A stretch of DNA of 64,000 bases from Alphaproteobacteria bacterium (GTDB lineage Bacteria > Pseudomonadota > Alphaproteobacteria > SMXP01), in contig JANQPV010000021.1 of the NCBI GenBank assembly GCA_028285305.1, positions 1-64,000 on the forward strand, given 5' to 3'. How positions within the stretch are numbered: position 1 is the first letter of the stretch; every line of letters begins with the position of its first letter. This document shows positions 1,545 to 19,235 of the stretch, piece by piece. Position numbers and translations under genes: made by a program. Under the pieces are notes generated by a model. The model searched no databases. It was not told where the DNA came from and worked only from the letters and a program-made list of their open reading frames with translations.

Positions 1545-2810
1545 ATGACACAGATTTTCAAGAGTAACCGTCCCGAAGAAGGCTGGACGAAGAAGTTTAA
1601 ACTCGATCGTGCCCTCATCAGTTTTGAAGACATGATTTCTGAAGACTTTTTTGAGCTGGAGCGCGAAGCCATCTTTCGTCCGAGCTGGCTGTATGTTGGC
1701 CGCGCTGACCGCATCAAGCAGCCTGGCCAGTATTTTACGAAAGAGATCGAGGTTCTGAAGCAGTCCGTGTTGGTGGTTCGCAACAAGGATGAGCAAGTCC
1801 GCGTCTTCCACAATGTTTGCCCACACAGAGGCAACAAGTTGATGTGGAATAGGGATGCCTCAAAAGAGGTTTCTGGTCAATGTGTGAACTTTTTTTGCAA
1901 GTTTCACGGTATTCAGTTTGATACTGACGGAAATCTAGCAGTCCTCACTGAGCGAGACGCTTGGCTAGATGGTCAAGGGGATCAACTGAAACTTGCGGAA
2001 GTTCCGTTCGAAATTTGGAACGGGTTTATCTTCGTCAATCTCCATCCTGATGGTCCCAAGGAAACTTTGCGCGAGTTTCTCGGAGACTATTATTGGACCG
2101 GGTTTGACGGCTACCCATTTGAAAAGTGTTCCCAAAGATACTTCGTCCGCTGCAATTCGAATGCGAATTGGAAGGCGATGATCGATGGGTTTTCAGAAAC
2201 GTATCACGCTCCGACCACTCATGCCCTCCCATACAACGTAGAGCCGGGCGAGGTATCGGTATTTCCTGAAGAGCATTATGGGATCAATGGGCGACATCGC
2301 ATGATGGTATATCAGAGTTTTGGCAACGATGTTTACAATTTCGACTATGAGCGTGCGACGCTCGCGTTCGGCACGGGGCCTCGCTATCCGTTCCCTGAGG
2401 AACTGACGAAGCTCCCGCCGGCCGCAAACCCGACTGGCCTTGAGAATTGGGGAAACAGTTCGCACAAGTTCTGGCCCAACTTCTTCATTCAGTTCTACAA
2501 TCCGGGATGGTTTCTCACCTACGCGATGTGGCCGCTGTCCTACAATGAGATGCGGTTCGAAATTGAAATCTTTATGCCGCCCCCAGAAGATTTCACCCAA
2601 CTCCTCTCACAACAGGCCAGTCTCTACATGTTTATGGATGCGGCGATACAAGATTTTAGCCTCCTTGAAGCAACGCAACTCGGATTGGAATCCAACGCAA
2701 TTAGGGAGTATCCCCTTTGCGATCACGAGGTCCTTGTGCGAAGCTTTCATGAGAACATTCACGAAGTCGTCGAAGACTATAAGCGCAAGTTGAATGGTCG
2801 GAATGCGTGA
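1545..2810 (+). CDS. Rieske aromatic-ring oxygenase alpha subunit
   Basis: A complete 421-residue alpha subunit. Rieske cluster ligands are C92, H94, C118 and H121 (CPHRG...CKFHG). The catalytic domain has NWKAMIDGFSETYH with D214 and the iron ligands H221 and H226; a third carboxylate is probably in the C-terminal MDAAIQDF stretch. The start ATG follows GAGG at a sensible distance. It is paralogous to the truncated gene at 1-1110, but substrate-pocket residues differ, so the pair may be two different oxygenases or a heteromeric enzyme. No ferredoxin or reductase is encoded nearby. A monooxygenase/demethylase role is as possible as dioxygenation. Confidence 0.95.
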   Translation: MTQIFKSNRPEEGWTKKFKLDRALISFEDMISEDFFELEREAIFRPSWLYVGRADRIKQPGQYFTKEIEVLKQSVLVVRNKDEQVRVFHNVCPHRGNKLMWNRDASKEVSGQCVNFFCKFHGIQFDTDGNLAVLTERDAWLDGQGDQLKLAEVPFEIWNGFIFVNLHPDGPKETLREFLGDYYWTGFDGYPFEKCSQRYFVRCNSNANWKAMIDGFSETYHAPTTHALPYNVEPGEVSVFPEEHYGINGRHRMMVYQSFGNDVYNFDYERATLAFGTGPRYPFPEELTKLPPAANPTGLENWGNSSHKFWPNFFIQFYNPGWFLTYAMWPLSYNEMRFEIEIFMPPPEDFTQLLSQQASLYMFMDAAIQDFSLLEATQLGLESNAIREYPLCDHEVLVRSFHENIHEVVEDYKRKLNGRNA

Positions 2811-3057
2811 GCTTCTTGAGCTACGGAGGATCCATCTTTGCTCTTGTTCCATCGATCTAGGGAAACGGTAGACGAAACTCCTGCTCAACTGAACTTCGCC
2901 AAACTTTGAATGGTTCCATATTGTGCTGACGAAAGTACAGATGTCGGAACGCTATTGATCTGTGCACGATGAAGGGGATTGGAACCACTGCGTCTGTCTT
3001 GGGACTGCTTCGCGCGACTTGGGCTGCGCCGATCTGGAGTTGCTGCGGGAACCCTCA

Positions 3058-3921
3058 ATGCTGCCTTATGAAGACCTATTAGCTCTGCCGCCACGAGTGG
3101 TTCTTGCCAACTACGATAAGCACGACGCCATTCTATACGCCCTAGGAGTCGGCGTCGGCGCCGACGATCCACTGAGTTCGAGCGAGCTCCAGTTCATCTA
3201 CGAACAAGATCTAAAAGCCCTTCCGACCATGGCCGTCGTTATTGGGGACGCCGATTTCTTTTTGAGAGATCCCCTGTATGACGTTGATTGGTGCCGTGTA
3301 CTTCATGGTGAGCAGCGGCTGAGGATCCACAAGTCCATTGAGCCCGAAGGGTCAGTCAAAAGCGTTCTGACGCTCGATGAGATTTACGATAAAGGACCAC
3401 AAAAGGGAGCATTGTTGCTTTCAACACGCAAGATCTACGATCAGAGAACTGGGGAACTTCTTGCGACAATGGGGGCGACATATGTCATGAGGGGCGACGG
3501 TGGCTTCGGGGGCAGCACTGCAAGTGCACCGTCACCTCACCAAATATCGGATCGAGCGCCGGATCTAGTCTTCGAAGCGTCGACGCGAAGAGACCAAGCG
3601 CTGTTATACCGGCTTTCTGGAGACATGAACCCTCTGCACGCCGACCCCGCCGTGGCCGATAGCGCCGGTTTCGGTAAGCCTATATTGCATGGGCTGTGTA
3701 CGTATGGTGTTGTGGGACGAGCTATCCTGACGGAGCTATGCGGCGATGCGCCTGAAAGGCTTCGGCAATACGACGTACGCTTCTCAGCTCCCGTTTACCC
3801 AGGCGATCGGATTCAAATCGAGGTCTGGATCGAAGGAAAGGGCCGCGCTTCTCTTCGAGCTCATGTCGAAGCACGAGACCAGATTGTTCTCGATAACGGC
3901 TTTGTGCAGTTCGCGGTCTAG
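3058..3921 (+). CDS. MaoC-type double hot-dog (R)-enoyl-CoA hydratase-like protein
   Basis: Start chosen at ATG 3058 because the protein then begins MLPYEDLLALPPR like other two-domain MaoC hydratases; an in-frame GTG at 2962 adds 32 residues without family resemblance. 287 residues: an N-terminal non-catalytic hot-dog (about 1-140, with ALPTMAVVIGDADFF) and a C-terminal hydratase-2 domain carrying YRLSGDMNPLHADP, where D189 and H194 match the catalytic pair of hydratase 2/MaoC. The family hydrates enoyl-CoA thioesters, here plausibly during side-chain or ring-cleavage-product beta-oxidation following the Rieske steps. The 247 bp gap before it suggests its own promoter. The 3' end faces the island. 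Confidence 0.88.
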   Translation: MLPYEDLLALPPRVVLANYDKHDAILYALGVGVGADDPLSSSELQFIYEQDLKALPTMAVVIGDADFFLRDPLYDVDWCRVLHGEQRLRIHKSIEPEGSVKSVLTLDEIYDKGPQKGALLLSTRKIYDQRTGELLATMGATYVMRGDGGFGGSTASAPSPHQISDRAPDLVFEASTRRDQALLYRLSGDMNPLHADPAVADSAGFGKPILHGLCTYGVVGRAILTELCGDAPERLRQYDVRFSAPVYPGDRIQIEVWIEGKGRASLRAHVEARDQIVLDNGFVQFAV

Positions 3922-4289
3922 TGTGACCAATGCGGAATGCGCCGATGTGCTAAACCCCGTCTTTAGCCAAGCATTTTTTGTCCTGCAAAGGTTCAAGTCA
4001 AGGGGCGGAAATCAAAGGCTCCAGTGCTCGTTGCGTTCTATGAGAGCTTAGCTTCAGAATAGAAATAAATGGTCTTTCCGCTGCATTGAAACGACTGATT
4101 AGAGTGCGAATTTGAGAAGGGTCAGTTTAACATCCGTTCAAACTAAGAAATCATGCTTGACTGGGGCTTTCACGGACAGCATAAGGCGAATGCACGTCAA
4201 GTCTTTGTTCCAAAGACCAATAGCCCGAGAAATTAACTCACTCGACAGAACATCGGGCCTAGGAATAGCAATTGGGGTACTAGAGGAGG
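3922..4289. other. Non-coding gap at left edge of the mobile-looking block
   Basis: About 370 bp between the MaoC gene and the convergent recombinase gene. I see no ORF with plausible composition, no tRNA-like fold and no clear terminator. The left junction of the putative island probably lies here, but serine-integrase sites have very short cores and I cannot place one by eye. Confidence 0.4.
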
Positions 4290-5951
4290 TCAAGCGCTAA
4301 GCGCTTTTCTCTGATCATTCCACGACGTCGGTATATTTGAATGCCGTCGAAGCCGAAATGAAGTCAGACAGGATGGTTGCTTACCTTCAAGGGCCGCCTC
4401 GATAAGATCCGGCGCAAGGAACGAGAGAGGCAGAAACCGACTGACATCGCTTGGCGAAACCTTATTGAGCTCAGCTATTTCCTTGATCGATGAGAACTCT
4501 CCGGACCGTACTTGGTCCATCCAAAGGTGAGCGCGAGCAATCAGCCTTAGCAGCGTTAAATCGGGAGATTGTTGACGAAGCTCATCGCCTTTCAGAATGA
4601 TCCTGCTTTCGACGCCGCGTCGCTTCCATTGAATCGGCACCTGCCACTCAAATGTTTCTTCCTTTTGATCTGATGCATTGATGCCAACCAGCTTGGCGAG
4701 TTGAGATGAGGAAAGCGCGATACGCAGCTCGGTTGTAGCGACATCGATACGATGGAGGATTGGTCTCCAGTCTTCAATTGAACTTCGATTTGATGCATTC
4801 TCACAAAATCGCTGGATAGTGAGGGTGTTGTGTAACGACGACGATCCATCGGATAGGTGAGTTTGAATGAGGTTGGGTTGTCCCAAAAGACTGCTTAGGC
4901 TTTCTCTCACGACACGTTCGATCTCGTTTGCGGGAAGACGCCAGCCCTGAGAACGGTCGGTCCTTTTTCCATTCAATGATCGCGAAATATAGTACCTGTA
5001 TCTAACACCATTTTTGTTCGTATGGTGACTGGTCATCGGCTCCCCGGCGTCATCGAAAAGTAGACCCAGAAGGGGACTTGGCTCCGTATGCCGAACTGTT
5101 CTCAGGTGGTCAGCAAAGTTTGATTTCGAGGAGAGTTTGTCTTGGGTACGGCGCCACGTTTCAGGATCGACGATGGCTTCGTGCTCGCCTTCGTAGTGAA
5201 CGCCTTTGTGGGCTATCTTCCCAATGTAAATGGGGTTCTTGAGAAGATGGTAGAGCCCGCCTTTGACAAAGGCCTTTCCGCCGAGCATTTTCCCGTTCTT
5301 GTGTACCCGGCGCTTTGTTCTCAACTTCTGTCGGTCGGCTTCGGCCTTCAGCTCACGAACGCTCCCGAGTTTCAGATAGAGATCGAATAGTCGTTTGACG
5401 GTTTTTGCTTCTTCCTTATTGATGATCAGCTTTCGATCTCTGACATCGTAACCCAAAGGCACATTACCGCCCATCCAAATGCCTTTCTTCTTCGAGGCGG
5501 CGATCTTGTCTCGTATTCTTTCGGCAGTGACTTCCCGTTCGAATTGAGCGAACGAGAGAAGGACGTTTAGCGTCAATCGACCCATGGACGTGGTTGTATT
5601 GAATTGCTGTGTGACCGAGACAAATGAAACGCCGTGCGCGTCGAACAGTTCAACCAACTTCGCGAAGTCAGCAAGCGAACGTGTGAGCCGGTCCACCTTA
5701 TAGACGACGACGATGTCGATTCTGTTTTGCCTGATGCCATCCAAAAGGTCCTGAAGGGCAGGGCGGTCCAAATAGCCACCCGAGTATCCTCCGTCGTCAA
5801 ACCGTGATTTGATGAGGTTCCACCCTTCGGATTTCTGGCTAGCGATGTAGGCCTCGCAAGCTTCTCTCTGCGCATCGAGAGAGCTAAAGTCTTGCTCAAG
5901 ACCCTCTTCCGTAGACTTTCGGGTGTAAACGGCGCAACGAAGCCGCTTCAT
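4290..5951 (-). CDS. Large serine recombinase
   Basis: 553 residues from ATG 5951, which overlaps the preceding DUF2924 stop as ATGA; a longer in-frame reading to 6113 would lie wholly inside that gene and was rejected. The N-terminal resolvase domain (about 1-150) has catalytic S13 in YTRKS, then SLDAQ, VVVYKVDRLTRS and SFAQFEREV. A recombinase domain follows (about 165-290, GGNVPLGYD...LKNPIYIGK), then a zinc-ribbon-like/coiled region and a C-terminal tail. These enzymes cut and exchange DNA at short att-like sites through a covalent phosphoserine. It is the last gene of a four-gene operon with DUF3489, a small ORF and DUF2924. It probably moves the block to its right, though mobility of this cassette type is not established. 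Confidence 0.93.
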   Translation of the reverse strand: MKRLRCAVYTRKSTEEGLEQDFSSLDAQREACEAYIASQKSEGWNLIKSRFDDGGYSGGYLDRPALQDLLDGIRQNRIDIVVVYKVDRLTRSLADFAKLVELFDAHGVSFVSVTQQFNTTTSMGRLTLNVLLSFAQFEREVTAERIRDKIAASKKKGIWMGGNVPLGYDVRDRKLIINKEEAKTVKRLFDLYLKLGSVRELKAEADRQKLRTKRRVHKNGKMLGGKAFVKGGLYHLLKNPIYIGKIAHKGVHYEGEHEAIVDPETWRRTQDKLSSKSNFADHLRTVRHTEPSPLLGLLFDDAGEPMTSHHTNKNGVRYRYYISRSLNGKRTDRSQGWRLPANEIERVVRESLSSLLGQPNLIQTHLSDGSSSLHNTLTIQRFCENASNRSSIEDWRPILHRIDVATTELRIALSSSQLAKLVGINASDQKEETFEWQVPIQWKRRGVESRIILKGDELRQQSPDLTLLRLIARAHLWMDQVRSGEFSSIKEIAELNKVSPSDVSRFLPLSFLAPDLIEAALEGKQPSCLTSFRLRRHSNIPTSWNDQRKALSA

Positions 5952-6394
5952 TCTTCGGCAACTCTGTTCGATTTGGTAAGACCAAAGAAGCGCCGTCCAT
6001 TCCAGTGCGCTCCTGTAATTTCTCGGGCGATCGCAGATAGCGAAGGGTAGGGCTTTCGGTCGAAGAGGAACCCGTCTTGCGTCGCATCGACGATGTAGGT
6101 CCGACCGTTCCACTCTCTCACCAGCCGGGTGCCAGGTGCGAGCTTCGTACGCCGCGCTGGAACGAGTTTACCTTCGTCTTCTAGAACCGACATGAGGCGC
6201 TTACGGAGGGAAGGTTTGAGGCCGCCGTAGACCTTGGCTTGAAATCGATAGGCGAGATCGCGCTTGACCAGGGTGGGGCTCATTGCTTTGGGAGGAGGGG
6301 CCTTGAAAACACGCGTCCACTCTTCCCTCAACTGTTGGGGAGACATAGTTTCCAGTCGCTCAAGGTATGCCGCGATGCGCTCTTGGTCAGTCAC
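5948..6394 (-). CDS. DUF2924 domain protein
   Basis: Start taken as GTG 6394, which overlaps the stop of the upstream 55-aa ORF (GTGA) and follows a GAAGG stretch; the in-frame ATG at 6445 would sit deep inside that ORF. 148 residues show the family's hallmarks: LREEWTRVFK, RDLAYRFQAKVYGGL, then LAPGTRLVREWNGRTYIV, DGFLFDRKPYPSLSAIAREITG and HWNGRRFFGL. DUF2924 proteins are, to my knowledge, nearly always encoded directly before a serine recombinase; their role (perhaps DNA binding or directionality) is not established. Its stop overlaps the recombinase start as ATGA, so translation is coupled. Confidence 0.9.
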   Translation of the reverse strand: MTDQERIAAYLERLETMSPQQLREEWTRVFKAPPPKAMSPTLVKRDLAYRFQAKVYGGLKPSLRKRLMSVLEDEGKLVPARRTKLAPGTRLVREWNGRTYIVDATQDGFLFDRKPYPSLSAIAREITGAHWNGRRFFGLTKSNRVAEE

Positions 6395-6558
6395 GCCTTC
6401 GGACCCTTCGTGAGCGTCTTGGCAAGGCGCTCTGTCAACTTCCATACATCTGGTCTCGTTCGGCGCTCAAGCAGCACCTCTTCTCGTGTGCGCGAAGGGC
6501 GAAGAAGGTAGGGGCTCACGTATGGAGCTTCGCCTTCGGAGGATTGTTCGCTTCTCAT
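6391..6558 (-). CDS. 55-aa ORF between DUF3489 and DUF2924 genes
   Basis: The ATG at 6558 comes one base after the DUF3489 stop, and the TGA overlaps the GTG start of DUF2924, so the ORF fills the gap in the operon exactly. The product is basic, rich in Arg and Glu (SRTREEVLLERRTRPDVWK), with no recognisable domain. The perfect fit between neighbours is the main evidence that it is translated; alternatively it exists only to couple translation of the flanking genes. Confidence 0.6.
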   Translation of the reverse strand: MRSEQSSEGEAPYVSPYLLRPSRTREEVLLERRTRPDVWKLTERLAKTLTKGPKA

Positions 6559-9061: not shown

Positions 9062-9310
9062 GTGACTCAGTACTACAAAATTGCGAAATCCACGTCCGAC
9101 ATTCTCGGCGCAACGTATTGCGGCTGCATACCCTGGGTGATCTATCACCCGAAAACCGGTGAGGAGTGCGTTGCTACCGCTCACTATTACGTTCACGACG
9201 ACGATCGACGATTCATTCGTACGGAAGAAGATACGAAGTGGGTCGTTCGTGAACTGTTAAAGGCGGTGAATTGGCATCGGGAACAGGAGTTGCTCGATGC
9301 GAACCATTAA
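9062..9310 (+). CDS. Small uncharacterised protein upstream of methyltransferase (82 aa)
   Basis: Starts with GTG at 9062, eight bases after AGGAG, which is buried in the 9022-9059 hairpin. The product is acidic with two cysteines in TYCGCIPW and histidines in ATAHYYVHDDDRR; no known domain. It overlaps the methyltransferase start by 14 bp, so the two are translationally coupled and repression of this gene by the hairpin would also limit the methyltransferase. It might be a leader peptide-type gene or a partner protein. Confidence 0.65.
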   Translation: MTQYYKIAKSTSDILGATYCGCIPWVIYHPKTGEECVATAHYYVHDDDRRFIRTEEDTKWVVRELLKAVNWHREQELLDANH

Positions 9311-10595
9311 CCGCGAATTGTGCGTCGAGATCAAAGAGATCTCAGCGCTAAATCCTTATTCGAACAATCCACGGACGCACTCCAAGAAACAGATAAAGCA
9401 AATTGCTGAATCGATGCGCGTTTTCGGCTGGACGAATCCCATTCTCATCGACAGGGAAGGGGGCATCATTGCCGGTCATGGCCGCTTAGAAGCCGCGAAT
9501 CGGCTTGGTTTAGATCGTGTGCCGACCATCTGTCTCGAAGACATGACCGATGAACAAAAGCGCGCTTATGTCTTGGCCGATAACAAGCTCGCGGAAAACG
9601 CCGGATGGGATAAGGGGCTCCTCGCCATTGAATTGCAAGGCCTTAGCGAAATCAATCTCGATTTCGACATCACGGTCACCGGCTTTGAGATGGGGGAGAT
9701 CGATATCATCTTGGGTGAGTTGGACGAGACGGACTCAGGAGAAGCTGAAACTGTTCCCGAAATCGATCCAACACTGCCGACGATTTCTCAATCGGGCGAT
9801 CTTTGGGTATTGGGGCGCCATCGGCTCTATTGCGGTGATGCGACGGACGCTGAATCTTACGCGCGCCTCATGGACGGCGAGGGTGCGCAGATGGTTTTCA
9901 TGGACCCGCCCTACAATGTGCCGATAGACGGCCATGTCTGCGGACTTGGGAACGTAAAGCACGACGAGTTCGCCATGGCGGTCGGCGAGATGTCTGAGGC
10001 GGAATTCACGGACTTTCTGAAATCCGTGCTCTGCCATTTGAGCGACAACAGTGTCGACGGCTCTATACATTATATATGTATGGATTGGCGCCACGTGTTT
10101 GAGCTCTTGTCGGCCGGCCGCGATGCTTACACCGAACTCAAGAACATTTGTGTTTGGAACAAAGCGAATGGCGGCATGGGCTCGCTCTACCGCTCAAAAC
10201 ATGAGTTCGTTTGCGCGTTTAAGAACGGTACCGCCCCTCACATCAACAATGTGCAACTCGGCAAGTACGGCCGTTATCGGACGAATGTTTGGGACTATGC
10301 GGGCGTCAATGGCTTCGGTGCGGATCGGGAAGACCTCGCGCTTCATCCGACCGTAAAACCGGTCGCGTTGGTCGAAGATGCGATCAAGGATTGCTCAAAT
10401 CGCGGCGACATTATTCTCGATGTGTTTTCGGGGTCAGGCTCGACGATCATCGCGGCGGAGAAATCCGGCCGCCGCGGTTTCGGGATGGAGTTGGATCCGA
10501 AGTACGTGGACGTGACGCTGAGACGATTTCGGGATTTGACGGGTGTTGAACCGATTGAGGAGCGAAGCGGCCTGCCGTTCAACGTACTTGAATGA
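9297..10595 (+). CDS. ParB-like domain/beta-class DNA adenine (or N4-cytosine) methyltransferase fusion
   Basis: 432 residues, ATG 9297 with GGAG eight bases upstream. Residues 15-110 are a ParB/Spo0J-type N-terminal domain (NPRTHSKKQIKQIAESM, IIAGHGRLEAA, YVLADNKLAE). Residues 165-425 are an amino-methyltransferase with catalytic DPPY at 203-206 before the AdoMet motif DVFSGSGST at 375-383, the beta-class order, plus LHPTVKPVALVE. The fusion is common on phages and integrative elements and is usually an orphan methyltransferase with no restriction partner; none is visible here. It may protect element DNA or alter expression. It is followed by a DUF5681 gene. Confidence 0.93.
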   Translation: MRTINRELCVEIKEISALNPYSNNPRTHSKKQIKQIAESMRVFGWTNPILIDREGGIIAGHGRLEAANRLGLDRVPTICLEDMTDEQKRAYVLADNKLAENAGWDKGLLAIELQGLSEINLDFDITVTGFEMGEIDIILGELDETDSGEAETVPEIDPTLPTISQSGDLWVLGRHRLYCGDATDAESYARLMDGEGAQMVFMDPPYNVPIDGHVCGLGNVKHDEFAMAVGEMSEAEFTDFLKSVLCHLSDNSVDGSIHYICMDWRHVFELLSAGRDAYTELKNICVWNKANGGMGSLYRSKHEFVCAFKNGTAPHINNVQLGKYGRYRTNVWDYAGVNGFGADREDLALHPTVKPVALVEDAIKDCSNRGDIILDVFSGSGSTIIAAEKSGRRGFGMELDPKYVDVTLRRFRDLTGVEPIEERSGLPFNVLE

Positions 10596-10622
10596 TGGAT
10601 TTCCTCTGCAAGGAGAGAAAAT

Positions 10623-10655
10623 AGACAGTTTGAACAAAAGAGACAGTGAACAATG
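10623..10655 (+). repeat. Short imperfect direct repeat before DUF5681 gene
   Basis: AGACAGTTTGAACAA is followed at once by AGACAGTGAACAA, between the methyltransferase stop and the DUF5681 start. It may be a tandem binding site or slippage duplication; nothing more can be said. Confidence 0.3.
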
Positions 10656-10684
10656 AACCCAACTTAGTAACAAGGTAGATTAAG

Positions 10685-11161
10685 ATGAATACGAATAACG
10701 ACATTGGTGATGACGACAAAGACTATGAAGTAGGGTACCGGAAACCGCCCAAGCACGCCCAATGGAAAAAAGGCCAGTCCGGCAATCCGAAAGGACGCCC
10801 AAAAGGCTCAAAGAACATGTCCACAATTCTCAACGATATGTTGTCTGAGCGCGTGACTGTTCGCGAAAATGGCAAAGTCCGCACAATGCCCTTGCGTGAG
10901 GCCTGGGCGGCAAGTCTCGTTCGGACAGCGATGACCGGCAGCGTGCGCGATCAGCTCGCCTTGATGAAAGCGCTCCATCAATTCACGCCCACCGTTTTTG
11001 ATCCCCAGCCGGATTATCCGACCAGCATTCAAGTCACGCTTGTTGAATCGGATGGGAATGGCGGCAGGAAAGAGAGGGAGATTGAGTTTGGGAAGGAGCC
11101 AAAGACGGACGGCGAGGAGTCAGCCGAAGGGATGCAGGACGATTCGGACTCTAAAAGATAA
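10685..11161 (+). CDS. DUF5681 domain protein
   Basis: 158 residues. The N-terminus carries the DUF5681 signature YRKPPKHAQWKKGQSGNPKGRPKGS (quoted in part: KKGQSGNPKGRPKGS), a short basic Gly/Pro-rich segment found at the N-terminus of many phage and island proteins. A helical middle (about 45-110) and an acidic C-terminal tail follow. The family often neighbours ParB-like methyltransferases and terminase-like genes; no terminase is seen here, so the set may be a remnant. Function unknown; nucleic-acid binding is suggested only by the basic motif. It lies 89 bp after the methyltransferase and is the last rightward gene before the convergent kinase operon. Confidence 0.85.
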   Translation: MNTNNDIGDDDKDYEVGYRKPPKHAQWKKGQSGNPKGRPKGSKNMSTILNDMLSERVTVRENGKVRTMPLREAWAASLVRTAMTGSVRDQLALMKALHQFTPTVFDPQPDYPTSIQVTLVESDGNGGRKEREIEFGKEPKTDGEESAEGMQDDSDSKR

Positions 11162-11260: not shown

Positions 11261-12340
11261 TCAACCAACGCACTTTGGTGATGCTTTCTGCGTTGCTTTA
11301 CCCTCTGGCTTGCAAAGCCTGCAAAGGTCGCCTGGCATACTCAGAAGAGATTCCGAATTGTGATTGAGATCCGCAAGCGTCCCCTTTTCGAGCAAAGAAC
11401 GAAGTGCCTTGTTCACACTGCGATGATCCATGTATCTCATCAATCCCCTGGCTCCTTCAAATCTGCAATTGAGACTGGCGAGCGCTTGTCCAAATTTGAG
11501 GGCCCGGTCAAGATCGGCTTTTTTGAGCTTGGCAAATCCATTGGCGCCGCGCGCGCCGACAACATGTAAAAAACCCGCGCTACACCAATCGCCAGACCCG
11601 GCCGCATCTTCAAATATTGTGGTTCGAAAAGCAGGGAGCGCGCTCCAGCGACCACGCCAACGCAAGCGCAATCCGTCTTCGCCCAAGGTCTCCACAACCA
11701 ACCGTGGGGACTTCGCCGTTGCTAGATCGGGCAGGTGGCCGAGACGATCATGAGAGAATTTCAGCACATGACAAAGATCGACAGCTTGTTGGAAGGGTTT
11801 TTCATCGCCTACTGAAGCGGGCTCAAACAAGACCAGTGCGCCGGTCTCTCTCGCCCATTTTGCCATGCGGAGTGACGCGGGCGTAATCCGGTCAAAATAA
11901 AAGACTTTCGGTGCAAGGTCAGAGCCTAAGATTGGTGCTGCCTGATTGATCGTCATCGGACGAAATCGCGGCAACCACGCACCGCAATCAGGACATGACA
12001 GGGAAAATCGATGAGTTCGTTCACCGTCTTTGGTTTCAGTACAACGCTGAATGACAATCGGTGTCGCCACCCGGTCATCCCGAACGAGATGACAAGTCTC
12101 CACACCGACCGCTTGATATTCGTCGAATATGTAATCGCCCGCGGAATCTTCACCTATTCGACCACTGGGGCACGCTGTCCAGCCGAGCCAAGCCAGCATT
12201 ACCATCACATTGCCGCAGGAACCGCCTGCCGCTCCAAAGGTTCCAAATTTACCTTCAATAATATCGAGGGCAATAAATCCGGTCCCCATGGCCAAACTCG
12301 ATTGCCTGTGCTTTCTAATTTGCAGGTCTATTCTCGTCAT
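11261..12340 (-). CDS. PfkB/ribokinase-family sugar or nucleoside kinase in the PRTase-CE operon
   Basis: Start at ATG 12340, whose ATGA overlaps the stop of the preceding gene; a GTG at 12349 is an alternative. 359 residues with ribokinase-fold marks: AAGGSCGNVMVMLAWLGW near residue 40 (substrate-binding GG..N), LVLFEPASV in the middle, and the ATP/anion-hole and catalytic-base motif DAAGSGDWCSAGF at about 245-257 (D251 the expected base). The family phosphorylates ribose, fructose, nucleosides or similar. The canonical DTxGAGD is DAAGSGD here, still compatible with activity. As last gene of an operon with a phosphoribosyltransferase, HAD phosphatase and SIS domains, it probably acts on a sugar-phosphate or nucleoside made by the system. 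Confidence 0.88.
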   Translation of the reverse strand: MTRIDLQIRKHRQSSLAMGTGFIALDIIEGKFGTFGAAGGSCGNVMVMLAWLGWTACPSGRIGEDSAGDYIFDEYQAVGVETCHLVRDDRVATPIVIQRCTETKDGERTHRFSLSCPDCGAWLPRFRPMTINQAAPILGSDLAPKVFYFDRITPASLRMAKWARETGALVLFEPASVGDEKPFQQAVDLCHVLKFSHDRLGHLPDLATAKSPRLVVETLGEDGLRLRWRGRWSALPAFRTTIFEDAAGSGDWCSAGFLHVVGARGANGFAKLKKADLDRALKFGQALASLNCRFEGARGLMRYMDHRSVNKALRSLLEKGTLADLNHNSESLLSMPGDLCRLCKPEGKATQKASPKCVG

Positions 12341-13452
12341 CGCTCCCACTCGCCTCTAATCCACATTGAGTATAATTCAGTTCCTTCGGTTGTGGACTGC
12401 GTCGGCTCGCCATAGCTCGCCGCTTCCACATATGGGATACCGACTTTTAGACGCCCACCGCTCTTACTTCGATGGTCATAACATGCGAGGACCGCGCCCG
12501 CAGAGAGCAGTTTAGACGAAAGTGGAGATACGTAAGCTTTACAGCCGCCGAGCTCATTCAATGAATCCCTGTACCGATCAATGGCAGTGTAGAGTTGTTT
12601 GTACGCCTCGAAAGGATTGAATTCTGAAGCGTGCAGAATATTTCCAGGCTCAACCTGAAAATCATCGAAAAGCGTTTGTCGATAAGAAGCGATAATCTCA
12701 TCTCCGCGACGGGCATCTTTTGACGGGAAAGGGATTACAGGGCAGATTTCATCCGGACGTAGCTCTTCCCGTATGCGGGTGAGCCGCGTCTCCTGATCCT
12801 CTCCCAGGACAGGGAACCAAACCCTTGGAATGTGCTCGGTTACTTCGTTATTGAGTTCGCCGGAGAATCCAACAACACTTGTGACCGTATCGCTGAGTGA
12901 GGCCGGTTTCGCGCCTCTATCCGAGCTAACACTTTCCGCGGTCACGATATGAAGATTGATATCTTTGCCGCCTGCCTCAAAAGCCGCGTCCAGCAAATAC
13001 AGTACCTGGACCATGACTGTCATTGCTACCATGCGCGGCATAGCGCTGATATCTATGACGATATCATCATAGGCAGCTAACTCCTGTTTGCGGCCACGGA
13101 GGACCCCCGAAGTGTGGCGTGATGTGCCCGCCTGATTACCGCTAGTTGAGAGCCGGATTGGCAAATCCTGCATCGTGCCATTCCGAAAAATGCACTGATA
13201 GCGGGCGACGTTAGCGGCTGTCAGTTCGGCGCGTTTTGCAGAATCTGGCAGGCCATTGTCAAAACTAAGGAGCCAGGCATCCCGGTTACCTCTGCCGCCG
13301 ATGGCACAAATCCGTGCACTTCCTAAGGTCGCGCGAATATCGAATCCGCGGCCGACAACAAACAAAACATCGCGCTTGCGGCGCCCAAGATGGTCCGTCC
13401 AGAACCTTTCAAATTCGAGCTCTGTGGTTAGGACATAGGGGTCCCAACGCAT
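12337..13452 (-). CDS. Unassigned 371-aa component of the PRTase-CE operon
   Basis: Start at ATG 13452, 10 bp after the ATPase stop; extension to 13572 would run inside the ATPase gene. The protein alternates beta strands and helices in a Rossmann-like way: RDVLFVVGRGFDIRAT, ARICAIGG, YDDIVIDISAMPRMVAM, INLHIVTAESV, then a second half with ICPVIPFPSKDARRG, HASEFNPFEAYKQLY and CKAYVSPLSSKLLSAG. There is no transmembrane segment or known catalytic motif. The layout resembles ligand-sensing Rossmannoid domains such as CARF in general form only. By elimination it could be the sensor or the effector of the system. Stop overlaps the kinase start (ATGA). Confidence 0.85.
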   Translation of the reverse strand: MRWDPYVLTTELEFERFWTDHLGRRKRDVLFVVGRGFDIRATLGSARICAIGGRGNRDAWLLSFDNGLPDSAKRAELTAANVARYQCIFRNGTMQDLPIRLSTSGNQAGTSRHTSGVLRGRKQELAAYDDIVIDISAMPRMVAMTVMVQVLYLLDAAFEAGGKDINLHIVTAESVSSDRGAKPASLSDTVTSVVGFSGELNNEVTEHIPRVWFPVLGEDQETRLTRIREELRPDEICPVIPFPSKDARRGDEIIASYRQTLFDDFQVEPGNILHASEFNPFEAYKQLYTAIDRYRDSLNELGGCKAYVSPLSSKLLSAGAVLACYDHRSKSGGRLKVGIPYVEAASYGEPTQSTTEGTELYSMWIRGEWER

Positions 13453-13462
13453 GGTAGGCCTA

Positions 13463-15358
13463 TTAGTCGACAAGGCGGGCCTCCTTGACGACTCTCGCAC
13501 CGTGCTCCAACCATTGCAACAAGTCTTGAAGTGATTTCTCACGCCACCCGCCGTAGCCCAACGGCAGATCAAAATGGACGCAATTCAATCGATTAAGATA
13601 AAACACCACGTACTCACGCCCCTTGTTACGATGATCGAGTCGGGGCTCGATCTCGTTATGTGCAACCAGTGAAGCAAGCACTTCACGAAGCTTTCGGTAG
13701 TGAGCCGGCCCGTCATCAGCCCCGTCGATCAGCCTGGCGCGATCTTCCATAGTGATCGCGAACCCGGTCACTCCGGGCGCATAGGGGGCTGTTGGGCGAA
13801 AGGTCTGGATCTGACAAAACGTGCCGGCTGCTTCTAGGAGCCGGCGAGCATCATAGCCCTGAGGCAGTCTTCGCGGCATAGCCTGCCAACGCTTCTTCGC
13901 GGCGGTTTTGATGATCTCATGTTGACGATCCGTGGTGAGTGCGGCGGGTGTGGCGCGCGGACCGGTTACTTTTGCCGACATTTCTTCGAAAATGTCTCCA
14001 GCCACGTGTACGTACTGATCAACATTCCAAGAGGAGACAGCTGCCAGCACGGCTTTGCCGTAGTAGAGCGGTGCGGACATCTCATGGCGGAGAAAATGAC
14101 GAGCCGCGTTGCGCATGCCTGAGCTGTCTTTGGACGAATAGTCTTCATCGGAAAGAACTGCAAAATCAAATGTGCGTTGACCGCGTGCGAGATCGCGCTC
14201 GATTAAAATCTCGGTGGCGCGCCAATGAATCGCCTTGTCATATGCGCTCGCTTCGAGCGCCTCAGCAACCGTCATCCAATCTTGATAACGCGGATTGTTC
14301 TTGGTGAGAGTTTCGATCCGAGTTTTGATATTGGTTGAGGCTTCCGCATACACGGGGTCCCATTGCACGCAGTCATCTTCTTCAGACAAGAGGCCAAAGA
14401 AGTCGCGATCCTGAAATCCATCGGCGCGGCGCGCTCGCAAATCGGCAATCTGCGAGGCAAACTTCGAGTAGGCCTTATGACGATTTGCCCACAGATTTTC
14501 GAGCTGGACTACGTCTTTGTAGTCACGATGGCGCAGCGCACCTTCGCTCAAGATCTCTTGGTAATTGAGCGCCTCCATGCGCTCAGCAACCCAAATGCCA
14601 CAGTCGGCCCGAGCAGTGGCGAGCAAGTCCATGAGTGATTTTCGCTGGTCGTCGGAAAGCAATTGTAGATCATCCAGCATCAAAACCCGTTTGGAGTTGA
14701 CCTCCCCGTGGGCATCGCTCAGCTGAGCTTTGGCGAACCAGGTCAGAGCGTCAAGCTTTGTATCACCGCCAGAGCCTTCGGCATCACCCAAATCATCCAA
14801 TCGATCATAAAAAGTCCGCTCGATGTTCGCGGCCCAACTGTAAAGTTCTGCTCCCGTCGCTTTAGCAGGGATAGTGACATCCACATCGGGATCCCAATGG
14901 GCTTTCACCGTTTCCAGGTCATCAGGATACGTTCGATTGCTTCGCTCCAGGACGGCCCGCACGGTTGCGATCACAATTCTGGCGTTCAAAAGTGCTCGGA
15001 ACATACCAAGCCCTCGATCGACATCATCAAGATCGCGATACTCCGGAGTGAAAGTCGCCATCACGCCCAGGAGCGAAGGACCATCCTCCCCGATGGCACC
15101 TTTGCTGCGCAGGGCATCATAAGTCGGTCGCGAATGGGGATCCTCTTGAAGGTTGCAAGCAAGGCGAAGTGGTCGCGGGGTCATCAGCCTCAGGAACGAT
15201 GTCTTCCCTCCGCCTGGCGCGCTCCGAAGAACCACGAGCCCGCTGAATGGATCTGCTATATCATCAATCAGATCGAGTGCGCCCGCACCGAATAGATGGA
15301 CAAACTGTTCGTCATTAACGGCCCTCTGAGAGGCTCTGAGTCTGAAGGGGTTACGCAC
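13463..15358 (-). CDS. ORC/CDC6-like AAA ATPase of the PRTase-CE operon
   Basis: 631 residues. Walker A is SAPGGGKTS at 46-54 and Walker B is VLMLDD at 225-230, preceded by long helical insertions; the C-terminal third (about 400-631) has winged-helix-like stretches. It starts with GTG at 15358, sharing one base with the stop of the phosphoribosyltransferase gene. I assign it to the ORC-CDC6-like AAA family that I recall being described alongside PRTase-CE domains in predicted conflict systems; that association is from memory. Such ATPases typically sense or remodel nucleic acid or protein and gate an effector. It is predicted cytosolic. The Walker A lysine K52 is present, so ATP binding is likely. 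Confidence 0.85.
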   Translation of the reverse strand: MRNPFRLRASQRAVNDEQFVHLFGAGALDLIDDIADPFSGLVVLRSAPGGGKTSFLRLMTPRPLRLACNLQEDPHSRPTYDALRSKGAIGEDGPSLLGVMATFTPEYRDLDDVDRGLGMFRALLNARIVIATVRAVLERSNRTYPDDLETVKAHWDPDVDVTIPAKATGAELYSWAANIERTFYDRLDDLGDAEGSGGDTKLDALTWFAKAQLSDAHGEVNSKRVLMLDDLQLLSDDQRKSLMDLLATARADCGIWVAERMEALNYQEILSEGALRHRDYKDVVQLENLWANRHKAYSKFASQIADLRARRADGFQDRDFFGLLSEEDDCVQWDPVYAEASTNIKTRIETLTKNNPRYQDWMTVAEALEASAYDKAIHWRATEILIERDLARGQRTFDFAVLSDEDYSSKDSSGMRNAARHFLRHEMSAPLYYGKAVLAAVSSWNVDQYVHVAGDIFEEMSAKVTGPRATPAALTTDRQHEIIKTAAKKRWQAMPRRLPQGYDARRLLEAAGTFCQIQTFRPTAPYAPGVTGFAITMEDRARLIDGADDGPAHYRKLREVLASLVAHNEIEPRLDHRNKGREYVVFYLNRLNCVHFDLPLGYGGWREKSLQDLLQWLEHGARVVKEARLVD

Positions 15359-16485
15359 TATCCAAACGTCCTATGGCGACTAACGCGGGGGAACAAACCA
15401 TGAACATTGCTAGCTTCTCCAGCCCACAAAAGGAAGAGGGAATTATTTGGTGTGTTGTGACTGAGGATGACCGGCAGTGCGCAATCGGCATATCCATAAC
15501 GGAATGAGCTGCCGCCCACTTTGGCGTGTTCATCGTCAACGCTTTCGTCCCAATAAGCGTCATCGCGAACAAGGTCCAAGATGTCATCGTCGCCAGGAGA
15601 GGTTAGCTTCTGCCTGTCGCCCAGGCTATGGACGACTCGTAGCTCTATATCACCCCTCTTAAAACCCCGCTTTACTAAGAGTGGTGTCAGATGCGCGATC
15701 GCTTGCGGCGCTGCGACATAGAGAACGACGATGACTTTGACTCCAGTTGGACACATGAGTGCGCCCAGACCACCCTCATCATCAAGTCTGTTGAGGATTT
15801 TGTCGATCTTACCTTTCCAACCGCCGTTTCCGTCCTCCCGCAAGAAACTGGTTCCGCTGGCGGAAAAATCGTCTAGCAAAACCACAGTTTGAAAGAGCGG
15901 TCTAGCTTTTGCGTCGCCTTCCACGACGTTGGCGTTCAGCTTGGCGATATCTTTTTCGAGTTCCGCTTTGAGGTTCAGCGCTTTGTCTGTCGATATATCA
16001 TAGGCATGCCAGATTTGTTCATTAGAGATCTCACGCCAATTGGCACGCCGGAACCTATCCGTTCGCGCCCCGTCGCTGAGACCGAGCACAAGAGTGCGCC
16101 GCAAGTGCTGCTCATATGGCAAGCTGCCCGTAATCGATCGTACACGGAAAGCCGTGATTCCAAGCTCATTAGCAGTGCGTTCAATAAGGTGAGGGCGCAC
16201 GATAGTCGGGAATGCGAGCTCGACCAGGTGCCCCATCTCAGCTTCGGAGATAAAAATCAGGCGCTTACGCACGAACTCATAAGCTGTTTGACGGTCAGAA
16301 TTGGTCTTGAATTGCCGCAACCAGAGCGCGAGGCTCTCCAAAAACCGGAGTCCTGGCGCATATTGTTGGTATTCGTCATATTTATAGTTAGCAAAAGATT
16401 CAAGTGAGGCGCATTCAGCCGCTTTCTCGCTGTCCGTCCAGTTCATAATGTTGGCGAGAAGCCGCTCAGCCAAATCACGTCGCAT
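15358..16485 (-). CDS. PRTase-CE-like phosphoribosyltransferase
   Basis: Start preferred at ATG 16485 because GCGGAG lies six bases upstream; in-frame ATG 16491 and GTG 16503 are alternatives. 375 residues. The helical N-terminus leads to a phosphoribosyltransferase core whose PRPP-binding loop is VVLLDDFSASGTSFL (about 201-215): two acidic residues followed by a SASGTS phosphate loop, as in type I PRTases. Near the C-terminus is SHNTPNNSLFLLW, a motif I associate with the PRTase-CE family. It overlaps the SIS-HAD stop by 11 bp and abuts the ATPase gene. Type I PRTases move phosphoribose between PRPP and a base; here it may produce or destroy a nucleotide signal or metabolite on infection. 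Function is inference. Confidence 0.85.
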   Translation of the reverse strand: MRRDLAERLLANIMNWTDSEKAAECASLESFANYKYDEYQQYAPGLRFLESLALWLRQFKTNSDRQTAYEFVRKRLIFISEAEMGHLVELAFPTIVRPHLIERTANELGITAFRVRSITGSLPYEQHLRRTLVLGLSDGARTDRFRRANWREISNEQIWHAYDISTDKALNLKAELEKDIAKLNANVVEGDAKARPLFQTVVLLDDFSASGTSFLREDGNGGWKGKIDKILNRLDDEGGLGALMCPTGVKVIVVLYVAAPQAIAHLTPLLVKRGFKRGDIELRVVHSLGDRQKLTSPGDDDILDLVRDDAYWDESVDDEHAKVGGSSFRYGYADCALPVILSHNTPNNSLFLLWAGEASNVHGLFPRVSRHRTFG

Positions 16486-18403
16486 ACACATCTCCGCGAT
16501 CACCAGGCTGAATACAAAGGTGACCAGCTCCAGATGAGGCGTCGAATTTTGAAATATAATAGAGAGTCGCTTGGACGCCTTTTACACCTGCGGGAGCGAG
16601 TGCCCAACAGTGATTGAAGTGACGGCTAGCTTCATCCACGCTCAATCCTAGCGGGGTATCGAGGAGGTCTGCATCATTACCAGGCCAGACTCCCTTGTCT
16701 CCGATGCGTAGCACTTCAAATCCAGAGTGCAAACCGGCTTCGATTGTCTCCACTACATTGTTCTTTGAGGCGAATGTGAACTGAATATCGATCGAATGAC
16801 TGGAGGCGCTAACCCGGGCCGGCATGCCGTGCTCCGCTAGAACCGCATCTACCGCCGAAATGGCACTTGAGACTCCGATGAAGGGAGGTAGACGCATCGA
16901 AATTTGAGCTTCGTTGGAACGAAGTTCCGCTCTTGCGAGCACTGGGTGTGTACCAAGCGCCCTAACAAGTTCGGGAGACCGGAACGGGCCGATGAGATTT
17001 TCGTGTTGACTGGCGAGAGATGTGATCACTGCTCCATTATAGTAACCGATCGTCACCTCGTCCCAAGACTCTTTGGGCAGGATTTGTCGTAACGCTTTAC
17101 CGGCGGACGCCCCGCGACCAGTTGCGATACCAATTTTGATGCCATTGATGTGGAGCTTGCAAAGCGCCTCACCGACAACAGGTTGGAGCCGACCAAACCG
17201 ATGTCGATTGTCGCATAGTGTCCCATCATAGTCGAAAACCACAGCGCCGAATCTCGTCTTTGCAATCGTTTCCACCGCTTTGCGATGTGCCTTTGCCCAC
17301 ACATCGAACTGCAGCGCATCGCGCAATGCATCGGGCGCTTTTCTTTTTATCGCGGCTCTCTGGTTTGCTTGCGAAGTTTTTCGGCTAACGGGTCCCGGCC
17401 CTAAGCCATAAAGTTTGCGACCGAAACTTGGCACGCCGGGTTTGCCGGGATCGATACCTGAGACACGCCCCGCCGATTCGCTTACATAGAGACCCGCAAC
17501 CAGCGCGGCCACTGCCTGCAAATCCGGCGACCCCTCTAGGTTGATGCGCGCCACTGGGATGTCACGGGGAAGAAGGCCCAAAGTGCGGTCCGCAAGCGAA
17601 CGATCCCTTCCAGATACAAGGGCCAACACGCCGGTATCGTTGGCGCGTTTGGCCATCCAATGATGGCGACCGTGACCAAAGTTGCGAAGATCTGCGATGT
17701 GAATTGGTCCAAGAGCTGCCTCAACAAATCGCGATTCCAAGTCAATCGCCGCGCTCCGAGCGATTGGGCTAAAGAGAAGGCTGGTAAATGCCTTTACGAG
17801 GACAGGCTCTACCGCCAAGACGATCGTGTCAGCATTCTGCTTAGCCAAACAGGTTTGCAAAAAATCTTCGAACGATTCAGGGAAAAGTGAGTTCGTTCCC
17901 AGTACATTGTCGTAGGCGCGCGTCAACAAAATCGAGGTGGCAAGCAGAGTCGCCACAGCGAGGAACCCATCGCGAAAACTGGGGGAGCGGCCGCCCACAA
18001 CGTCTGTGTATCCGTATCTTCGCTGCAATTTGTGAAGCGGGGTGTCATTGGACAAAACAAGCGCACCAACAGGTCCACACTCTTGTTGCGCAGCATGCTT
18101 GAAGGCGATGCCGATATCTCGGTTTCTCCCACTTGCGGAAAAACACACTGTAGCTGTTTTTTGAGGAATGTCGTCAGACACCAACTCGAATGGTGTGGCT
18201 GCACGAGCTAGCTGGCCCGTTCGCCTCTGATGTAGATCAGCCGCAAAACTTGCAGTTGAGAACGAGCCACCAGAACCAACTGTAAGGACTGGGAGTTGGA
18301 TCAGGGATCCAACCATCGAAGAGATGGCCGAGATATCGAAACTTTGCGCAGCTGAGTAGACTTGGCTAAGAGCATCGAGTTCGCGCTTATAATATCGTAC
18401 CAC
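16475..18403 (-). CDS. SIS domain-HAD phosphatase fusion, first gene of the PRTase-CE operon
   Basis: 642 residues from GTG 18403, nine bases after AAGGAG. Residues 35-310 form a double SIS (phosphosugar isomerase/binding) module: VGSGGSFSTA at 42-51 and FSASGRNRD at 88-96 are the sugar-phosphate loops. Residues 385-600 are a HAD hydrolase: motif I DYDGTLCD (nucleophile D391, acid D393), motif II IATGRG at 426-431, and motif IV IGDKGVWPGNDADLL at 567-581, with a cap insertion between as in Cof-type phosphatases. The pair could isomerise and dephosphorylate one sugar-phosphate. The fusion leads an operon with a PRTase and a PfkB kinase, so all catalytic domains concern phosphorylated sugars or nucleotides. 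Confidence 0.9.
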   Translation of the reverse strand: MVRYYKRELDALSQVYSAAQSFDISAISSMVGSLIQLPVLTVGSGGSFSTASFAADLHQRRTGQLARAATPFELVSDDIPQKTATVCFSASGRNRDIGIAFKHAAQQECGPVGALVLSNDTPLHKLQRRYGYTDVVGGRSPSFRDGFLAVATLLATSILLTRAYDNVLGTNSLFPESFEDFLQTCLAKQNADTIVLAVEPVLVKAFTSLLFSPIARSAAIDLESRFVEAALGPIHIADLRNFGHGRHHWMAKRANDTGVLALVSGRDRSLADRTLGLLPRDIPVARINLEGSPDLQAVAALVAGLYVSESAGRVSGIDPGKPGVPSFGRKLYGLGPGPVSRKTSQANQRAAIKRKAPDALRDALQFDVWAKAHRKAVETIAKTRFGAVVFDYDGTLCDNRHRFGRLQPVVGEALCKLHINGIKIGIATGRGASAGKALRQILPKESWDEVTIGYYNGAVITSLASQHENLIGPFRSPELVRALGTHPVLARAELRSNEAQISMRLPPFIGVSSAISAVDAVLAEHGMPARVSASSHSIDIQFTFASKNNVVETIEAGLHSGFEVLRIGDKGVWPGNDADLLDTPLGLSVDEASRHFNHCWALAPAGVKGVQATLYYISKFDASSGAGHLCIQPGDRGDVYAT

Positions 18404-18482: not shown

Positions 18483-18771
18483 CATCGATCGTTGGAAAGT
18501 GATGGATATTCCTGGGTTTCGTTCAAAAAGTCGATGAATTCGTTGGGATCTCCCACAGATTCCTGTCACTACAACTAAGCCGCAAAAGGGGCATTCTTAA
18601 CACTCCGCTTCCAATTCAATCTGACGTGCTGCTCTGGATCCGAGCGGTACGAATTGAATTTTAGCATCCCGACCCGATTGGTTCGATAAGCCGGTTTTTG
18701 GTTCTCACATCTGCGCTTGTGCGACGAATAGCGATAGTTGGGAGAAGTAGTTGTAAGGAGCGCAACGGAGT

Positions 18772-18918
18772 CCCTGTTCTCTCCCTGCATGCCCCTGTTA
18801 AATGCCGCTTTTTCCCTGTTCAGATCATCAGGGTATTTGATGGTATAGTCCCGGAATTCCGCGAGAAACGAGCTGCACGTTTCCCCGCTGGGGCCAAAAT
18901 TTGAGAATTCTCCCTGTT
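18772..18918. repeat. CCCTGTT repeats phased at 21 bp
   Basis: CCCTGTT occurs at 18772, 18793 and 18814, exactly 21 bp apart, and once more at 18912; a partial copy (CTCCCTG) is at 18782. On the minus strand the phasing gives a Thr-Gly every seventh codon. The spacing of two helical turns fits a multimeric DNA-binding site. I recall similar AACAGGG arrays scattered in alphaproteobacterial genomes, origin unknown. Confidence 0.6.
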
Positions 18919-19235
18919 TTTTCGCTGTTAATCAGCGAACTTTGCCTGAGACTGGTTCGCCAAGGACTGCCCACAGCGCCACTTGGTCCGGGTCCATTCC
19001 TACCACATGGGCTGCAAATTGTTCCCGAGACCTAGGCAACACACTTTTGCCGAACGGGTTTTCGATCGGCAGCAAGCCTCAGGCGTCTTCGTCGAAATGT
19101 CCCAGATCATCGGTCATAAAGCTGGCCTGCCGGAGCCCATCTTCCACTTGATTGATGCCGGCATCCTGTTCTGCAAACACGGTGGATAGATTGGCTTTCT
19201 TCTTGTTCAGACAGATGCGTCTGCACATCGTAACG

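Follow-up and report, generated by a model that had tools for sequence, protein, structure and literature searches.

A composite array of short repeated sites at positions 18770-18981 of an alphaproteobacterial contig (JANQPV010000021.1) is considered here, with a probability of about 0.83, to represent the P side of attP, present here as attR, and to form the outer attachment end of an integrative element of about 14.7 kb, whose catalyst would be a large serine recombinase (LSR) termed REC and whose repeats would act as arm-type sites. In the window, by which the whole analysed stretch of 64,000 nucleotides is meant, the element extends over about 4.3-19.0 kb, with the outward-pointing REC gene at its left end and the array at the opposite one. 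The evidence computed directly comprises the recurrence and phasing of the array, its co-occurrence and layout with REC, the adjacency and constant orientation of tRNA genes, and the tRNA 3' nucleotides common to both ends.

Architecture of the array

The initial annotation had drawn attention to copies of CCCTGTT in exact 21-bp phase, with a further copy nearby, beside a stretch translating as FFAVNQRTLPETGS. Both observations were reproduced, since the heptamer is found on the plus strand at 18772, 18793, 18814 and 18912, and FFAVNQRTLPETGS is the exact translation of plus-strand positions 18918-18959. Taken by itself, the heptamer shows no enrichment in the window (7 copies against 6.5 expected), and the window contains two CCCTGTT pairs at 21-bp spacing, compared with 0 of 300 Markov simulations that yielded at least two at 21 or 22 bp. 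The pair pattern CCCTGTTN{4,34}CCCTGTT was confined to a single place in the 5.4-Mb genome to which the window belongs, where it gave two overlapping matches, and the reversed-pattern control gave 0. A chance origin of the array was ruled out by these simulations, by the uniqueness in its own genome and by the recurrence in relatives at 21 or 22 bp.

The composite feature exceeds what the initial annotation had described. It starts with three direct, putative arm-type sites on the plus strand (18770-18820), namely GTCCCTGTT (18770-18778), GCCCCTGTT (18791-18799) and TTCCCTGTT (18812-18820), which keep an exact 21-bp phase and have homologous arrays in relatives. The third repeat is followed on the minus strand by an inverted half-site, ATCAGGGTA (18827-18835), whose counterparts in relatives read TAGGGAA or ACAGGGAA. 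Further along the plus strand lies an inner site group (18910-18939), which is composed of CTCCCTGTT (18910-18918), an additional site TTCGCTGTT (18921-18929) and the inverted partner of the latter, ATCAGCGAA (18931-18939). Both arms of this inner palindrome are changed with respect to relatives, which read TTCCCTGTT...AACAGGGAA, and the pairing is kept. The feature is concluded by a recombination-end block (18948-18981, plus strand) harboring GAGAC at 18948, GGTTCG at 18954, GACTG at 18965 and CCA at 18979-18981, which is the predicted right boundary of the element. The FFAVNQRTLPETGS translation originates from the inner palindrome TTCGCTGTT/ATCAGCGAA and the subsequent GAGAC-T-GGTTCG, and the DNA at 18918-18959 is non-coding attachment DNA rather than a gene.

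Just outside the element, window positions 18991-19193 are about 67-71% similar both to a stretch of pSymB of Sinorhizobium meliloti that carries no annotation and to a Rhizobium gene annotated as a helix-turn-helix protein; this segment is possibly a gene relic. The plasmid matches obtained by DNA similarity search cover 18991-19200, that is, DNA outside the array.

Recurrence in alphaproteobacterial genomes

A BLASTN comparison, which had been proposed as the check, matched 2 of 60 genomes including the own one; the array DNA is too diverged for plain BLASTN and was therefore traced by motif, layout and recombinase. The strict pair pattern TTCCCTGTTN{11,14}TTCCCTGTT was searched in 385 alphaproteobacterial genomes, with spacings counted from the match coordinates, and gave matches at 44 places, spread over 24 of these genomes, while the reversed-pattern control was 0 in every listed genome. 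The spacing was 21 bp at 33 places, 22 bp at ten, 20 bp at one and 23 bp at none. A phylum-wide draw of 299 genomes gave the strict pattern in 6 of the 86 members of the own class versus 1 of 213 others, the lone match outside the class being a simple repeat. The recurrence in alphaproteobacterial genomes that the initial annotation had proposed is thereby borne out, and the refuting case it had named, a region unique to this genome, does not hold, as the same composite is present across alphaproteobacteria.

These arrays share a common order, in which three or four copies of TTCCCTGTT at 21 or 22 bp are followed by an inverted TAGGGAA, a variable stretch, and an inner part made up of TTCCCTGT(T/A), TTCCCTGTT and an inverted AACAGGGAA; the end block then reads GAGAC, GGTTCG, N5, GACTG, with CCA located 14 bases past GACT. 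When the spacing is left free, pairs of CCCTGTT turn up in 174 of 289 alphaproteobacterial genomes, mostly in apparent coding sequence or simple repeats, and the loose pattern is therefore uninformative unless the 21/22-bp phase and the TT prefix are demanded. Among the matches listed for the triple pattern in genome contigs, many were cyanobacterial 7-bp tandem repeats and 22-bp repeats of Verrucomicrobia, which were discounted as simple tandem repeats on the strength of spacing and host alone. On viral contigs, 8 of 120 loci passed a looser test (an array, a nearby AGGGAA and a loose match to the end block), two of which have the loose match without the full end block.

The end block was matched at 36 of the 55 array loci examined, the window being one of the 36 aligned ends. 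CCA stands at offset 14 from GACT in 32 of the 36, and the dyad partner AGTC stands at offset 20 in 14, being encountered once at any other offset tested. The conserved end, with six or more repeated sites over about 210 bp, would exceed the simple att sites of at most 50 bp used by LSR integrases, if the whole span is required.

The large serine recombinase REC

REC (4290-6113, minus strand) carries a Resolvase domain (PF00239, 1.7e-39), a Recombinase domain (PF07508, 2e-14) and a C-terminal helix-turn-helix, and both Pfam domains are present in 24 of 24 relatives. Its top fold matches are Bxb1, phiC31 and LSR-DNA complexes, and both sequence and fold identify REC as an LSR. YxRxS is the conserved catalytic motif of large serine recombinase integrases, and the corresponding Y9, R11 and S13 are invariant in the 24 REC sequences. 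The Zn_ribbon_recom profile matched 7 of the 24 members, the window protein giving E=0.0093, which is below the curated cut-off. The last 100 residues form a helical domain with an AlphaFold2 mean pLDDT of 89. At this C-terminus, HTH_ParB of Pfam was matched in 3 of 24 members (best E 7e-4), a profile search reached SopB at E 0.1-0.3 only, and the best fold matches were the DNA-binding domains of ParB, Spo0J, Noc and SopB, which are weak, with E-values above 1. Just upstream of REC and overlapping it is a DUF2924 gene (5948-6445, minus strand), and such a gene is found upstream of REC in 25 of the 26 REC loci with at least 600 bp upstream, a count outside which the window locus stands.

REC and the array as opposite island ends

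Wherever both ends were located on one contig, an outward REC was found at the far end, 5-48 kb from the array. The array contigs of G157, G208 (two elements), G070 and G200 carry an outward REC 25-48 kb inside, which is 45-49% identical to the window REC over the full length, and the same layout is displayed by a truncated REC 22 kb inside (G090) and a REC relic 5 kb inside (G031). In the reverse direction, three additional REC genes, each with inside sequence of about 60 kb, were followed inwards, and all three led to an array 30-40 kb inside together with the end block, at a tolerance of up to three mismatches in 27 bases. Within the same 385 genomes, REC at E<=1e-100 was detected in 14 of the 24 array genomes versus 39 of the 361 others (Fisher p=1.2e-7). 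Ten of the 24 array genomes are without REC at this threshold; G031 and G186 have REC relics only beside their arrays, and G035 has a weaker REC match.

A second layout, in which the array is placed between REC and a tRNA gene, was seen in L427 and L470, while the array lies just past REC with no tRNA seen in L065, L124 and L332, and directly past a REC relic in L036. Since the array occurs on either side of the core in the two layouts, it is part of the recombination site and not of a fixed gene. The position at an island edge and the link with integration, both suggested initially, are supported. The dispersed element envisaged initially is to be corrected in that the array does not stand by itself and is the attachment end of islands with one LSR subfamily. 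The viral contig L274 (REC at 367-2028, class-1 array at 6273) has an orientation outside the general layout.

tRNA genes at the REC end and their 3' nucleotides at the array end

A tRNA gene was located 172-426 bp past the REC match at 18 of 30 REC loci, these 30 being the ones with a locus returned among all matches in 53 genomes, and its 3' end always faces REC. When only the 25 loci with at least 1.4 kb past the REC match are counted, 17 are tRNA-positive; the other five are too short. The tRNA kinds at the 18 loci are Met, Ala, Val, Lys, Gln and four Ser isoacceptors, to which further element ends contribute Tyr as well as two Ser cases in G090 (206 bp; 1.4 kb). In most cases the gap between the tRNA and the REC match amounts to 172-305 bp, which leaves no room for another integrase. 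On viral contigs, many of which stop soon after REC, a tRNA was found at 10 of 80 loci, all on the expected strand, and 6 of the 31 full-length RECs with at least 500 bp beyond them had a tRNA within 600 bp.

As a control, 30 loci were drawn by PF07508, comprising 9 of the REC subfamily and 21 less related LSRs with about 25% identity to REC. Four of the 21 adjoin a tRNA, namely Arg, Gln, Tyr and Ala (L396, L397, L401, L415), the control loci having less sequence beyond the gene than the REC loci; tRNA targeting by serine recombinases may therefore be wider than the REC subfamily. The Sphingobium plasmid pTomTYG65a (AP027331.1) provides a further case of a REC (BDX81257.1, annotated as hypothetical) with DUF2924 upstream and a tRNA-Gln about 190 bp beyond, and no array was found within 20 kb inside this REC at three or fewer mismatches.

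No tRNA was detected in the window, and none at E<=1 at its REC end (2800-4600); the tRNA part of the model therefore rests on relatives. Rfam likewise gave nothing in the window at gathering thresholds, and one chance match only in 2800-4600 at E<=1. A tRNA beside the array itself is rarely seen, the cases being one tRNA-Ser at +336 (L036) and one tRNA 2.6 kb away (L311).

In 5 of 5 pairs with both ends available, the 3' nucleotides of the element's own tRNA (6-9 nt, ending in CCA) are repeated at the array end, as CAGCCA for Gln, CCTCCGCCA and CTCCGCCA for two Ser cases, and CCACCA for both Val and Tyr. The window core reads GCGCCA; tRNA-like sequences with a GCGCCA ending exist in its own genome, which proves no origin. 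By sequence comparison, the distance from GGTTCG to CCA at the array end is about the same as in a tRNA, and the array end in this way mimics a tRNA T-arm. The sequence that follows CCA at the array end is often similar to that following a tRNA at a REC end (L309/L310, L324), which points to elements stacked at one tRNA, and in G200 the array is immediately bordered on its outer side by another REC end. On three viral contigs (L435, L453, L497) REC is succeeded at 430-490 bp by an array in inverted orientation, an arrangement that would be expected of the junction of a circle or of tandem elements.

Many REC ends (L359-L387) also possess an inverted repeat, CAGAGAC and GTCTCTG separated by about 40 bp, between the tRNA and the REC stop, and its GAGAC motif is the one that occurs at the array end as well.

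Proposed mechanism and alternative explanations

From these observations we infer REC as the catalyst, the core, the binder of the arms and the control of directionality as follows. REC would recombine a core that ends in the acceptor CCA of the target tRNA, and the core of the element would sit in the dyad GACTG-N14-(C)AGTC beside the T-arm-like GGTTCG; with the core so placed, the array end would be left with a few 3' nucleotides of the tRNA gene, the intact copy of which would stay beside REC. The copies of TTCCCTGTT would be arm-type sites two helical turns apart, and therefore on one face of the DNA. Their likeliest binder would be the ParB-like C-terminal helix-turn-helix of REC, and the reading of the arm sites by this domain is the least certain step. 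In the manner of the lambda Int arms, these sites may assemble the synapse or gate it and its direction. On a broader and tentative view, for which the odds are rather against than in favor, an LSR family has evolved a lambda-like attP, in which an added ParB-type helix-turn-helix reads the TTCCCTGTT array and the core recognises the tRNA T-arm and CCA, with many isoacceptors as targets and stacking of elements.

The most serious competitor is an arrangement in which the array of the same islands is bound not by REC but by an accessory protein, be it an excisionase or directionality factor, DUF2924 or the ParB_N-methylase, for a role in excision control, segregation or regulation, while REC uses a short core alone. 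This falls not far short of an even chance, because known serine integrases use att sites of at most 50 bp and integrate without an accessory protein, according to the portion of the source consulted (PMC4111918), and because DUF2924 adjoins REC in nearly all of the loci counted above; it is opposed by the array immediately adjoining the recombination-end block in either layout and by the extra helix-turn-helix in REC itself. Far less probable is an operator or other regulatory repeat without a recombination role, since the distance of the array is fixed to the end block and not to a gene start, and the array is located at the distal or the REC end of islands, always the recombination end, common as repeated operator sites are.

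The gene adjacent to the tRNA bears on a still less likely idea, namely that a tyrosine integrase performed the integration and REC was a passenger. tRNA targeting is usually credited to tyrosine integrases (PMC4383910), and L124 has, judging from its sequence, a tyrosine-integrase-like ORF to the right of the array; nevertheless, REC is the tRNA-proximal gene, at the short distances given above in most cases, and the array co-occurs with REC. Ends of the Tn7/Mu/IS21 type contain multiple transposase-binding sites about 22 bp apart, and the spacing and direct orientation of the array are like those of TnsB-type ends; on this view the association with tRNA and REC would be secondary. Such a transposon end is extremely improbable in light of the tRNA 3' nucleotides that the array end carries, the tRNA-flanked REC gene on the opposite side, and a Pfam search of ten island proteins that returned no DDE transposase.

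Relation to known systems and significance

Prophage WO of Wolbachia encodes a recombinase homologous to REC over the full length at 34-36% identity (AB036666 gp31, wVitA), and its recombinase gene is likewise adjoined by a DUF2924 gene, as stated in the section consulted of PMC11376236. By contrast, the att sites of WO are placed in a magnesium chelatase gene or intergenic DNA in the consulted text of PMC9203015, and a search of the 600 bp surrounding the gp31 end revealed no TTCCCTGTT array. The ssrA islands of Dehalococcoides (DsiB, CcrB-like), so far as the excerpts of PMC3146451 go, resemble the REC islands in having a serine recombinase gene beside attL, the 3' part of a tRNA-like gene as the site, tandem islands and short direct repeats; the same excerpts differ in giving one target (tmRNA), a repeat of 20 bp and an additional small serine recombinase, and contain no arm array, whereas the REC islands use many tRNA kinds with repeats of 6-9 bp.

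Islander-type tRNA islands share the intact tRNA at one end, the 3' fragment at the other and tandem accretion, but they use tyrosine integrases where the REC islands use a serine recombinase. The complex attP of the lambda type is comparable in having an arm of about 200 bp with repeated protein-binding sites beside the core (about 240 bp for lambda in the consulted part of PMC4111918), yet it belongs to an unrelated catalytic family, and arm binding in the REC islands is putative. Paracoccus phage vB_PamS_Pami6 is also an alphaproteobacterial serine-recombinase phage with predicted integration at tRNA-Met, as given in the available passage of PMC6536676, and differs in being a single predicted case. 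The literature searched yielded no account of the array, subscription papers being outside reach.

The array and its end block furnish a sequence handle for one boundary of otherwise unmarked alphaproteobacterial islands and their cargo. The finding also runs counter to two working assumptions expressed in the consulted excerpts, the one being that tRNA genes are not specified by serine integrases, the other that the att sites of these enzymes are short and simple. Should REC by itself be able to exploit many tRNA 3' ends, it would serve well as an integration tool and would give direct access to the question of how a serine recombinase governs direction by means of arms.

Putative cargo of the island

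Between the two ends, the window element harbors on the plus strand a gene for a ParB_N protein with an N6/N4 DNA methylase domain (9297-10595) and a DUF5681 gene (10685-11161). The same two genes (window 9297-11161) also occur near arrays in L101, L124 and L136, which suggests that they constitute a shared accessory module of the islands. The genes at 11261-18403 (minus strand) encode a PfkB kinase, a CARF6 protein, an ORC-CDC6-like ATPase, PRTase-CE and a HAD-type protein. They form a probable conflict or defence operon, which looks like island cargo, and its CARF6 protein was matched by PADLOC at 2e-108.
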